Shown here piece after piece: positions 5,730 through 24,466 of a DNA stretch of 51,411 nt. Below the pieces are notes generated by a model that saw nothing but the letters and a program-made list of their open reading frames with translations, was not told the DNA's origin and made no database searches. The position numbers and the translations under genes are program-made. Within the stretch, counting starts at the first letter, position 1; every line of letters begins with the position of its first letter. Source of the DNA: Gemmatimonadota bacterium (GTDB lineage: Bacteria; Gemmatimonadota; Gemmatimonadetes; Longimicrobiales; RSA9); contig JBDLIA010000012.1 of NCBI GenBank assembly GCA_039715185.1, positions 1-51,411 on the forward strand. Reading direction: 5' to 3'.

Positions 5730-6935
5730 ATGCTGAGGATCACCCCCTTCCACGCGCGCACCGCGCGCCTCAGTCAGGCGCAGAATTGGCGCCGCTGGTC
5801 GGGCTATCTCGCGGCGAGCTCCTACGAGCTCCGCCACGACCGCGAGTACTGGGCGATCCGCAACTCGGCCGCCCTGATCGACGTCTCTCCCCTGTTCAAG
5901 TACGGGATCGAGGGACCGGACGCGGAGCGACTCCTGGACCGCGTCGTGACCCGCGATGTCACCAGGTGCAAGCCGCATCAGGTCCTCTACACGCCGTGGT
6001 GCGACGACGCCGGCAAGGTGATGGACGACGGCACGCTGGCACGCCTCGGGGACGACTCGTTCCGGCTCACCTCGGCCGAGCCGAACCTGCGCTGGCTTCA
6101 GGACAACGCGCTCGGCATGGACGTGTCCATTCGGGACACCTCCGACGACCTGGCCGCGCTGGCGCTCCAGGGGCCCAACGCCCGCCGGATCCTGCACGAC
6201 GCGGCCGGCGGGGTCGCCGACGACCTGCGCTACTTCCGGCTCACGAAGGGCGAGATCGGGGGCGTGCCGGTCGAGATAACGCGCACCGGCTACACCGGCG
6301 ACCTCGGCTATGAGATCTGGGCGGAGCCCGCGCGTGCGGAGGCGCTCTGGGATGGTCTGATGGAGACCGGGGACCGACATCGTATCCTGCCCGCGGGCAT
6401 GCTCGCGCTCGACCTCGCCAGGGTGGAGGCGGGCCTGGTGCTGATCGGCGTGGACTACGTGCCCGCGCACCGGGCACTCATCGAGGACCAGAAATCCTCG
6501 CCGTTCGAGTTGGGGCTGGGCTGGACGGTCGATCTCGGCAAGGACTCGTTCCTGGGGCGCGACGCTCTGATCGCCGAGAAACAGCGCGGGCCCGAGTGGC
6601 AATTCCGCGGTCTCGAAGTGAGCTGGGATTCTCTCGAGGCGCTGTACGGCGAGGTCGGGCTGCCGCCTCAACTCCCCGCGCAGGGCTGGCGTTCGAGCGT
6701 ACCCGTATACAGCGGCACGACGCAGGTCGGCTACGCCACGAGCGGGTGCTGGTCTCCGCTGCTCAAGAAGTCCATCGCGCTCGCGCACCTCCAGTCCGGA
6801 CACGCCGGGATCGGGACCGACCTGCGCATCGAAGTCACCGTCGAGCACCATCGCCAGAGGGCCGCGGCGCGGGTGGTCGAGACGCCCTTCTTCGATCCGG
6901 AGCGAAAGCGCAGCACGCCGGCGATGCCCGGGTGA
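5730..6935 (+). CDS. GcvT-like aminomethyltransferase / THF-dependent demethylase
   Basis: A 401-residue protein of the GcvT/DmdA/sarcosine-dehydrogenase C-terminal superfamily. Typical segments are ALIDVSPLFKYGIEGPDAE, TPWCDDAGKVMDDGTLARL, the folate-domain signature TRTGYTGDLGYEIW, and a C-terminal barrel with VYSGTTQVGYATSG. Family members move a methyl or methylene group from a substrate onto tetrahydrofolate. It is a stand-alone protein with no GcvH, GcvP or GcvL nearby, so glycine cleavage is unlikely. Its neighbours (divergent Rieske oxygenase, two downstream flavoproteins) point to demethylation of a methylated amine or related compound. Its stop overlaps the GTG of the next gene (GTGA). 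The start is taken at the ATG at 5730, because the upstream in-frame stretch looks non-coding. Confidence 0.82.
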   Translation: MLRITPFHARTARLSQAQNWRRWSGYLAASSYELRHDREYWAIRNSAALIDVSPLFKYGIEGPDAERLLDRVVTRDVTRCKPHQVLYTPWCDDAGKVMDDGTLARLGDDSFRLTSAEPNLRWLQDNALGMDVSIRDTSDDLAALALQGPNARRILHDAAGGVADDLRYFRLTKGEIGGVPVEITRTGYTGDLGYEIWAEPARAEALWDGLMETGDRHRILPAGMLALDLARVEAGLVLIGVDYVPAHRALIEDQKSSPFELGLGWTVDLGKDSFLGRDALIAEKQRGPEWQFRGLEVSWDSLEALYGEVGLPPQLPAQGWRSSVPVYSGTTQVGYATSGCWSPLLKKSIALAHLQSGHAGIGTDLRIEVTVEHHRQRAAARVVETPFFDPERKRSTPAMPG

Positions 6936-22228: not shown

Positions 22229-23383
22229 CTATCTCGGGGCGAACGCAGCGCCTTCAGGACCAGTAATCGTTACGCCGGCGGCCTCCAGCGCCTGGAGCGT
22301 CACGCCCCAGCCCCCGAACTGCTCCGTGACGGCCAGCCAGAGCTCGTTGTCGCCCGCCTCGAGCGGCAGGAACAGCTCGTCGTACAGGCCGATCGTGCCC
22401 AGAAAGCGATAGTCGCGCGAGGCGAAGGCATCGGACGCTGCGAACAGCGCCCGCCCGTTCAAGTACACACGCACGCGATCGCTGAAACCGATTTTCACGG
22501 GCAGCGTGCGCGCGCGATCGGAGCGTAGCGTCAGCGCCGCGATCACCGTGTTGTCGGGGCGGTTGTTGTAGAGCATGCCGATGTTCGCGATGCCGCGGAC
22601 CTCGGGCTCCAGGGTCGTCCACGTCCGGGCCTCCGCGAAGTCGGCGGCCAGCCGCTCCAGTCCATCGACCGTCTCCTCGGGGAAGGCGTCGGAGACACGC
22701 CACCTGGTGACGACGCCCGGCACGGCGTCCGGCGCCTCGGCGCCTTCCCCGCCGGCGAACGCGGGGTCGACGCCTGGCCGCACGATGACGTTGGCGAACC
22801 ACGCTCCCGCGCCGCTGGTGGCGAGCCCGACTGCGCCCGACGCCGGATCACGCACCAGCTGGGGGAAAACGATCGGGACCCCATCGATCGTTACCTCCGC
22901 CCGGCTCTCCCGCACCGCGAGTCGGACGTGCACCCACTCATCGGAGCGTATTTCCGCGGGCTGGACGTAGCGCGCGTCCGCGTAGAGCTGCCAGCTGCTG
23001 GTGCGGTTGAATATCGGCTGGTATTGGACGGCGTCCGGCAGCCCGGACAGGTGCGGCCGCAGGTAGATGTGCTCGTGGTTGGCCGGGTCCACCGCGCGAA
23101 AGCGAAGCCCGTGAAAGCCGTTGTCCGCGGTCGCGGCGAGGTCGAACTCGATCACGCCGTCCCCGAATTCCGCGTCCTTCAGCCAGGCGACGCCGCCCTG
23201 CATGAACAGCGCGTCACGGTCCAGGTGGGCCTCGAAGCGGGACTCGCGTGCCTGCACGTCCCAGGCGGCTTCGTCCATGGCGACCTGGGCCTCCAGCGGC
23301 ACTCCGAAGAAGATCGCCGCGACGGTGGTCGCGGCCATGGCCAGGACGATGGCGTTCGTCCAGGGCTTGCCAATCGCTTTCAT
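22229..23383 (-). CDS. Secreted concanavalin/LamG-like (DUF1080-type) protein
   Basis: A 384-residue protein with an N-terminal signal segment (AIVLAMAATTVAAIFFGVPL, cleaved near EAQ). The region about 45-200 looks like a concanavalin-type beta-sandwich: GVIEFDLAATADNGFHGLRF, FRAVDPANHEHIYLRPHLSG and WVHVRLAVRESRAEVTIDG. A second beta-domain follows, including VRVYLNGRALFAASDAF and DNELWLAVTEQFGGWGVTLQ. Such proteins bind or process carbohydrates, but no catalytic residues can be assigned here. A tandem operator-like repeat lies about 100-190 bp upstream (23481-23574), and an AraC regulator is encoded beyond it on the same strand. Control by that regulator is possible but unproven. Confidence 0.65.
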   Translation of the reverse strand: MKAIGKPWTNAIVLAMAATTVAAIFFGVPLEAQVAMDEAAWDVQARESRFEAHLDRDALFMQGGVAWLKDAEFGDGVIEFDLAATADNGFHGLRFRAVDPANHEHIYLRPHLSGLPDAVQYQPIFNRTSSWQLYADARYVQPAEIRSDEWVHVRLAVRESRAEVTIDGVPIVFPQLVRDPASGAVGLATSGAGAWFANVIVRPGVDPAFAGGEGAEAPDAVPGVVTRWRVSDAFPEETVDGLERLAADFAEARTWTTLEPEVRGIANIGMLYNNRPDNTVIAALTLRSDRARTLPVKIGFSDRVRVYLNGRALFAASDAFASRDYRFLGTIGLYDELFLPLEAGDNELWLAVTEQFGGWGVTLQALEAAGVTITGPEGAAFAPR

Positions 23384-23480
23384 CGTGGGCCGGGCTCCTG
23401 ACTGGTCGATATCGGGGCCGCCGCGGGGGCGGTGATCCCCGAAGTCTAGGAGCGGGCCCTACGCGCGTATTGGAAAAAGC

Positions 23481-23578
23481 GGACATCAGAAGTCGTTCGA
23501 GATTCGAACTAGTTACACATCGCCTCAGCGGACATCGCGACTCATTCAAATTTTGAACTAGTTGCACATCGCCTGAAG
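23481..23578 (-). promoter_or_regulatory. Tandem 49-bp repeats with palindromic cores (candidate operator)
   Basis: Two 49-bp units start with GGACATC at 23481 and 23530. Each contains a 13-bp inverted repeat TTCRA-N3-TYGAA (23496-23508 and 23545-23557), the 8-bp palindrome AACTAGTT, and a shared tail CACATCGCCT. The core bases differ but the palindromic symmetry is kept by compensating changes. The units lie 100-190 bp upstream of the minus-strand concanavalin-like gene. This suggests two binding sites for a dimeric regulator. Confidence 0.6.
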
Positions 23579-23618
23579 GGCGATGAAGAGCTGGAGCAAA
23601 TGGGCGACGAAGAGCTGG
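23578..23618 (+). repeat. Short 24-bp-period direct repeat
   Basis: GGGCGATGAAGAGCTGG at 23578-23594 recurs as GGGCGACGAAGAGCTGG at 23602-23618, one mismatch in 17 bases. It directly follows the 49-bp tandem units and may be part of the same control region or a coding remnant. Confidence 0.5.
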
Positions 23619-23635
23619 GGCGGTCGGCCGTGGAT

Positions 23636-24466
23636 TCAGCCGGGGACTGGCTCGGCTCGCCGCTCCGCGTGCAGGCGTGCCGGCGTGGACGCGGTCAGGT
23701 CGCGGAAGTCGCGGATGAGGTGCGCCTGGTCGAAGTAGCCGTGGGCCACGGCGAGCTCCGACCAGCGGGGCGCCCCACGTGTATCGGCCACCGAAACCAC
23801 CCGATTGAGTCGCTCGAGCCTCTGGATTCTCTTGGGCGATGCCCCCGCCACCTCGAGCACGGATCGACGCAGGTGCCTCAGCGACACGCCGATGCGGTCC
23901 GCCACGTCCGAGATCCGCAGGGACGCCGAGCGAGGGGCACGTAGCGCCCGCAGCGCGAGCCGGGATATCCGGCCCGCCGGATCGAGCCTCGAATCGGCGT
24001 CGCGTTCCCTGAGCCAGCGTACCAACTCGCCCAGCGCGCCGTCCCCGACGAGCGCGCGCTCGGCCAGCTTGTCGAACAGAGAAACCGAGTCGGGGCCCGC
24101 AGACGGTCGCCAGGAATCGATCGCGTCCAGGTGGTCCGCCGGGGACACCCCGAGGAGTCTGGTCACCGATTCCGGGCGCAACTCGACGGCCTGCATCACG
24201 AGACCGGGCTCCGGCCGAAAGGAACGTACCCGGCTGACCGGCCCGAAGAGTTCCAGCCTCGGCCTCTCCACACCGCCACCATCGGAGCGCACGTAGTGGA
24301 AGACGACGGTCAGGCCGGGATACGGCAAAACACGATGCGTGGCGGGCGCGCCGTGGCGCGAAGCCTCGAACGTCCAGATGGAGGAAACGTCTTCGCGCAG
24401 ATCCCCGGGCGGCGCGAACTCGGCGTATCCGCCGACTCGCCGTCGAGGGGTCAATGGGTCGCTCAT
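23636..24466 (-). CDS. AraC-family transcriptional regulator
   Basis: A 276-residue regulator. The N-terminal two thirds is a sensor region beginning VGGYAEFAPPGDLREDVSSI, typical of DUF6597-like AraC sensors. The C-terminal AraC DNA-binding domain (about 175-270) shows two helix-turn-helix units: LRISDVADRIGVSLRHLRRS, and ELAVAHGYFDQAHLIRDFRD followed by TASTPARL. The inducer is unknown. It sits between the TonB-receptor gene and the operator-like tandem repeats that precede the concanavalin-like gene, so these are candidate targets. Confidence 0.85.
   Translation of the reverse strand: MSDPLTPRRRVGGYAEFAPPGDLREDVSSIWTFEASRHGAPATHRVLPYPGLTVVFHYVRSDGGGVERPRLELFGPVSRVRSFRPEPGLVMQAVELRPESVTRLLGVSPADHLDAIDSWRPSAGPDSVSLFDKLAERALVGDGALGELVRWLRERDADSRLDPAGRISRLALRALRAPRSASLRISDVADRIGVSLRHLRRSVLEVAGASPKRIQRLERLNRVVSVADTRGAPRWSELAVAHGYFDQAHLIRDFRDLTASTPARLHAERRAEPVPG

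Follow-up and report, generated by a model that had tools for sequence, protein, structure and literature searches.

The two tandem palindromic units at positions 23478–23574 of the analyzed stretch (51,411 nucleotides, hereafter the window) are probably two of the 17 copies of a lineage-specific, REP/MITE-like, non-coding dispersed palindromic repeat of about 56 bp, which has been tandemly duplicated in the window. The window is contig C12 of a Gemmatimonadota genome of 3,661,178 bases in 252 contigs, with a completeness of 96%. The assignment to the small dispersed palindromic repeats is based on the many copies, their intergenic placement, their indifference to gene orientation, their restriction to the lineage, and a conservation that extends over only about 56 bp. 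An initial annotation of the window had described the units and read them as selected for a dimeric regulator or an RNA hairpin, beside an AraC gene; the observation is confirmed, while the regulatory interpretation is partly supported and mostly replaced.

The tandem pair lies on the forward strand and consists of 2.0 copies of a 49-bp unit (79% matches), with the two units (23478–23525 and 23527–23574) sharing 79% identity at a spacing of 49 bp. When aligned to the full 56 positions of the repeat model R1, copy 1 spans 23478–23533 (+; 61.2 bits, E 1.2e-13, the copy being part of the training set) and copy 2 spans 23527–23582 (+; 61.7 bits, E 8.8e-14), and the two overlap by 7 bp. Each copy contains a 25-bp palindromic core (23490–23514 and 23539–23563) that is symmetric at 9 of 12 positions. 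Both cores fit the consensus AACTMGTTCRA-N3-TYGAACKAGTT, an imperfect palindrome of 25 bp, with TTCGA-GAT-TCGAA at 23496–23508 in the first and TTCAA-ATT-TTGAA at 23545–23557 in the second. AACTAGTT follows at 23507–23514 and 23556–23563, so that the geometry previously described, TTCRA-N3-TYGAA plus AACTAGTT, is exact in both units. Comparison with the other copies revealed that window copy 2 is closest to the C105:6799 copy (88% over 60 bp). Since the outer flanks of the window pair match those of the single C105 copy, the pair looks like one C105-like element whose middle was duplicated internally as a 49-bp unit. Directly after the element, at 23578–23621, lies another imperfect direct repeat, whose units (GGGCGATGAAGAGCTGGAGC / GGGCGACGAAGAGCTGGGGC) have a spacing of 24. 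At the C105 copy (L048:6765–6850), the short hairpins GATGTCC/GGACATC and CATCGC/GCGATG flank the core on either side, and the window has the right-hand one as well, at 23567–23585.

With only two copies in the window, the units could be taken for chance palindromes that underwent ordinary tandem duplication and have no wider meaning. When up to 3 mismatches were allowed, TTCRA-N3-TYGAACTAGTT matched the window 4 times, with both palindromes counted on both strands, where 0.20 matches were expected; none of 100 window shuffles reached 4, which supports the tandem units as real. A search of the whole genome with AACTMGTTCRA-N3-TYGAACKAGTT (up to 3 mismatches) detected 17 palindromes, each on both strands, at 15 loci, compared with 0 matches for the reversed-pattern control. 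This genome-wide count already refutes the chance reading, whose probability we regard as negligible. A shorter pattern, again with up to 3 mismatches, recovered the same 17 palindromes together with 6 weak background places, and its control gave 2 matches. The cores start at C12:23490 and 23539; C17:8012, 13913, 17142, and 42065; C21:5364; C47:17196; C105:6799; C146:3969; C4:275; C7:15227; C33:7581; C61:9288; C113:6905; and C122:4852 and 4989.

R1 is a covariance model of 56 positions built from all 17 copies, which score 53–77 bits, while the next place in the genome reaches 14.4 bits (E 3.9; reverse strands of the copies aside). The scores of the copies are high by construction, as they form the training set; what carries information is the gap to the next place and the lack of further members. 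The R1 search of this genome found no intermediate or degraded remnants, and the significant matches of the DNA and model searches were whole copies only. Four of the 15 loci fall inside 34 kb (C17:8012–42089; simulated P 0.004, the cluster being picked post hoc). Three of these four copies are also similar to one another, with 75% over 111 bp in one comparison and 92% over 48 bp in another, suggesting that the C17 cluster arose by local copying.

The element consists of a left flank of about 12 bp, a palindrome of 25–27 bp, and a right tail of about 19 bp (GCNNATCGCGAAAAAGG), with the left flank less conserved than the core and the right tail. The copies were oriented by their flanks before comparison. 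Over the 136 pairs, the mean pairwise identity was highest in the core (0.83), lower in the proximal 19 bp on the right (0.59) and the proximal 12 bp on the left (0.41), and near the random expectation of about 0.29 in the distal flanks (0.26–0.33). The palindromic core is thus conserved far beyond chance across the 17 copies (83% versus 26–33%), as had been proposed from the window. The G+C content of the core with 10 bp of flank on each side is 0.42–0.53, compared with 0.70 for the genome. A few pairs share longer flanks: C21/C47 (88% over 111 bp), C17:13913/17142 (75% over 111 bp), and C4/C61 (85% over 81 bp). Such shared flanks favor a repeat, because operators would not carry the flank along.

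The initial annotation had further claimed that bases in the two arms changed together. Analysis of the 17-copy alignment (A2) supported this for pair 22/28 (GC in 7 copies, AU in 6, GU in 3, and another combination in 1), which supplies most of the covariation signal and on which the argument mainly rests, but pair 17/33 is mismatched in 8 of the 17 copies, including both window copies. Across A2, 91.0% of the pairing cells were paired, against a shuffled mean of 88.3% (9 of 500 shuffles as high); the covariation score was 0.197 against 0.159 (15 of 500 as high), and 3 pairs changed on both sides against 2.5 (241 of 500 as high). Folded as single-stranded DNA, the window copies were weakly better than their shuffles (z −1.4 and −2.3), and four other copies reached z −4.1 to −6.8, with 6 of the 17 copies folded in all. 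Template-switching correction of imperfect palindromes could yield such symmetry without selection on a regulator. Outer locus-specific stems, seen in single-sequence folds, were rejected, as pairing between a copy's own flanks was no better than between swapped flanks (permutation p 0.86 for energy and 0.99 for matches).

The strong hairpins of several copies and the covariation of pair 22/28 through G-U intermediates would suit an element acting as RNA, either as an mRNA-end hairpin (terminator or stabilizer) or as a small structured RNA. We consider this very unlikely: the covariation is essentially that of one pair, four loci are divergent, the orientation of the element to the genes is inconsistent, and a scan of 8 loci gave no Rfam match at the element. 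An intrinsic terminator was ruled out by the lack of a conserved T tract 3′ of the hairpin in the alignment of the 17 copies and by separate canonical terminators or strong G+C-rich hairpins near the C33, C4, C113, and C21 copies. What Rfam did match in those 8 loci was a tRNA adjacent to the C47 copy, overlapped by a weak plastid-model match, and a sub-threshold cspA thermoregulator RNA (57.9 bits, threshold 78) at the cold-shock gene that neighbors the C113 copy (L054, upstream of 6563–6769). The tRNA gene, a tRNA-Arg (CCG) at L047:8010–8084, ends 112 bp before the palindrome core (L047:8197–8221), and among the stretches scanned only 1 of the 15 loci carries a tRNA, so that an association of the element with tRNAs was rejected.

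In the window, the pair lies between two genes of the reverse strand. The gene at 22229–23383 encodes a predicted secreted protein of 384 aa with a 3keto-disac_hyd domain, and its 5′ end faces the element at 106 bp from core 1. The gene at 23636–24466 encodes an AraC-type regulator (HTH_18 and DUF6597), and its 3′ end faces the element at 72 bp from core 2; the AraC gene noted earlier is present, with the units at its 3′ end. The 384-aa gene has a paralogue at G000:C7:9969–11084 (L148) that is 33% identical, contains one in-frame TAG, and is located 4 kb from the C7 element copy.

The intergenic placement is clear for 14 of the 17 copies. The C17:42065, C146, and C7 copies overlap only over-long N-terminal start predictions, with the Pfam domains beginning downstream; as the domain positions support dropping these starts, we read all 17 copies as intergenic, three of them depending on the choice of start codon. 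Gene calls came from a simple home-made finder with manual correction; some neighbors have no Pfam match, and the right neighbor at C47 is uncertain. Among the 15 loci, five are convergent (C17:8012, C17:13913, C33, C61, and C113), five tandem (C12, C17:17142, C21, C47, and C122), four divergent (C17:42065, C105, C146, and C7), and one of unknown orientation (C4, near a contig end). The background, by length of 121 intergenic gaps of 80–1500 bp in 361 kb of sequence analyzed, is 19% convergent, 57% tandem, and 24% divergent. Neighboring genes include those for aconitase, acetyl-CoA synthetase, DksA-type, cold-shock, Na/H exchanger, MgtC, PanE, BlaI-type, TerB, and DPP IV proteins, and Pfam annotation of the 15 loci revealed no functional theme.

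These contexts bear directly on a regulatory role. The element shares a two-fold symmetric core and fixed spacing with the operators of dimeric transcription factors, including AraC-type ones, but the genes around it and the flanks shared between copies do not match such sites. AraC-type proteins bind direct-repeat half-sites more often than long palindromes. The proposal that the adjacent AraC protein, or the 384-aa gene at 22229–23383, has its operator in these units is not supported, as 15 of the 17 copies occur at 14 other loci beside unrelated genes. AraC operators belong in the promoters of co-regulated genes, while here a third of the loci (5 of 15) are convergent and the dispersed contexts have no common theme; together with the position at the AraC 3′ end, this argues against the AraC reading. 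In a broader version, which we regard as rather unlikely, a lineage-specific dimeric transcription factor would use the palindrome as its operator and control a regulon of about 15 loci. The near-symmetric 25-bp core, the fixed spacing in 17 of 17 copies, the conservation relative to random flanks, and the lack of degraded copies all agree with it, and the divergent C105, C146, C7, and C17:42065 copies sit where an operator could, with the C7 core ending 28 bp ahead of the predicted start of a TerB-family gene. It is weakened by the convergent loci, the themeless neighbors, the flank conservation that reaches 111 bp in certain pairs, the position of the adjacent AraC gene, and the lack of a sigma-70-like promoter match in 23300–23720, a weak test in this lineage.

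Comparison with relatives indicated that the repeat is restricted to this lineage. Among 12 family genomes, the palindrome pattern occurs only in the window's own (0 of the 11 others). A blastn search of 41 genomes, own included, with the 141-bp region returned the own genome and one 20-bp match (G009) outside the palindromes, and R1 matched 2 of 146 order genomes, the own one and G112, the latter at a marginal 24.7 bits. In 84,980 species genomes, the exact pattern was found in 6 stretches, with one palindrome each and no second copy in the stretch returned, and viral contigs gave 1 match; as R1 scored these matches at only 18.5–32.5 bits, we treated them as chance rather than as family members. 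The titles and abstract openings of the literature surveyed mention neither the motif nor such repeats in this lineage, which does not prove their absence.

The initial annotation had expected the palindromes to be kept in relatives with the same gene order. At another copy, which lies in a dksA-ORF-fur arrangement, six family genomes keep the order without the palindrome. All 12 family genomes carry the dksA-like gene, and the order, with the small ORF opposing, is the same in 6 of the 9 nearest relative loci (L121, L122, L123, L126, L127, and L128 among L121–L129). R1 found nothing above background at these relative loci (best besides the own copy, 11.2 bits). The dksA-ORF gap is 79–233 bp in relatives versus 299 bp in the own genome by the same measure, and the spacers of the six order-keeping relatives are too diverged to locate an insertion point. 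In 40 relatives, no close homologue covering the full length of either window neighbor was found: the AraC gene matches at 28–39% identity in 5 of 40 (6 of 41 with its self-hit), and the 384-aa protein has one partial match in 1 of 40. At E 1e-20, none of the 11 other family genomes has a homologue of the Na/H exchanger beside the C61 copy. At C122, aconitase homologues above E 1e-50 occur in 6 other family genomes, and neither upstream neighbor was found at the 5 relative loci compared (from 4 of these genomes).

This distribution also bears on a possible role in chromosome organization, in which a lineage-specific protein would bind the palindromes regardless of transcription, much as parS, matS, or Noc sites are bound. 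The orientation-independent intergenic placement, the constrained core without decayed copies, and the clustering on C17 are consistent with such sites. However, parS, matS, and Noc-type sites are usually conserved across genera, whereas the motif is missing from all 11 other family genomes, and the GC skew is too weak to place or orient the contigs; we regard this reading as unlikely. To our knowledge, the palindrome bears no convincing resemblance to LexA, CIRCE, parS, or attC sites.

The preferred reading, a small dispersed repeat, places the element near two known classes. REP elements (the GTAG and CGTC super-families) and REPINs are short imperfect intergenic palindromes that are scattered and often species-specific (PMC3733652, PMC3116915). 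Like them, the element is a short imperfect palindrome, scattered in extragenic DNA and tandem in places, with a conserved asymmetric sequence on one side, and its 25-bp core in 17 copies falls within the 20–40 bp of REP palindromes. Unlike REPs, which usually exceed 100 copies and number in the hundreds, it has 17 copies, is AT-richer than the genome, and carries GTAG/GTGG within 8 nt of the foot in 1 of 17 copies and CGTC in none. No RAYT match (Y1_Tnp, PF01797) was found in the own genome (96% complete), while 5 of 14 control genomes gave one. The element is therefore REP-like rather than a REP, since it departs from REPs in tag, copy number, and RAYT. ERIC, RUP, NEMIS, and RPE are MITE-like small mobile repeats (PMC2229807). 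The element resembles them in being non-coding, non-autonomous, intergenic, hairpin-forming, and lineage-specific, but differs in its size of about 56 bp (up to about 110 bp in pairs) with one central palindrome. Neither distinct terminal inverted repeats nor target duplications were identified for it, and the DNA and model searches pointed to no parent insertion sequence.

Like REP/REPIN or MITE elements, the element probably spread by insertion or copying into intergenic DNA regardless of gene orientation, presumably carried as a non-autonomous passenger by some DNA-processing enzyme; this enzyme would recognize the palindrome, which could form a hairpin or cruciform; one window copy would then have been tandemly duplicated as the 49-bp unit. 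Against mobility, no RAYT match was found, no clean empty site or target duplication was seen among the genomes compared, none of them congeneric, and the core is more constrained than dead mobile copies would require. A decaying mobile family would leave degraded copies, so their absence favors sites kept for function and, together with the tight core, leaves room for a protein-binding site held by selection. A further, doubtful proposal is that a lineage-specific DNA-binding protein recognizes the 25-bp palindrome and thereby marks about 15 places between genes, whether or not they are transcribed, in a chromosome-organizing or silencing role; the site would have spread by copying along with its flanks before being held by selection.

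On the dispersed-repeat reading, the regulatory account of a single gene gives way to a small repeat family that occurs across the genome and is absent from the related genomes examined. The family itself is new and small, and its kind is already known. With 17 intact copies, none decayed, and no RAYT found, it offers a modest but clean case for the spread or upkeep of short palindromic repeats without a known transposase.
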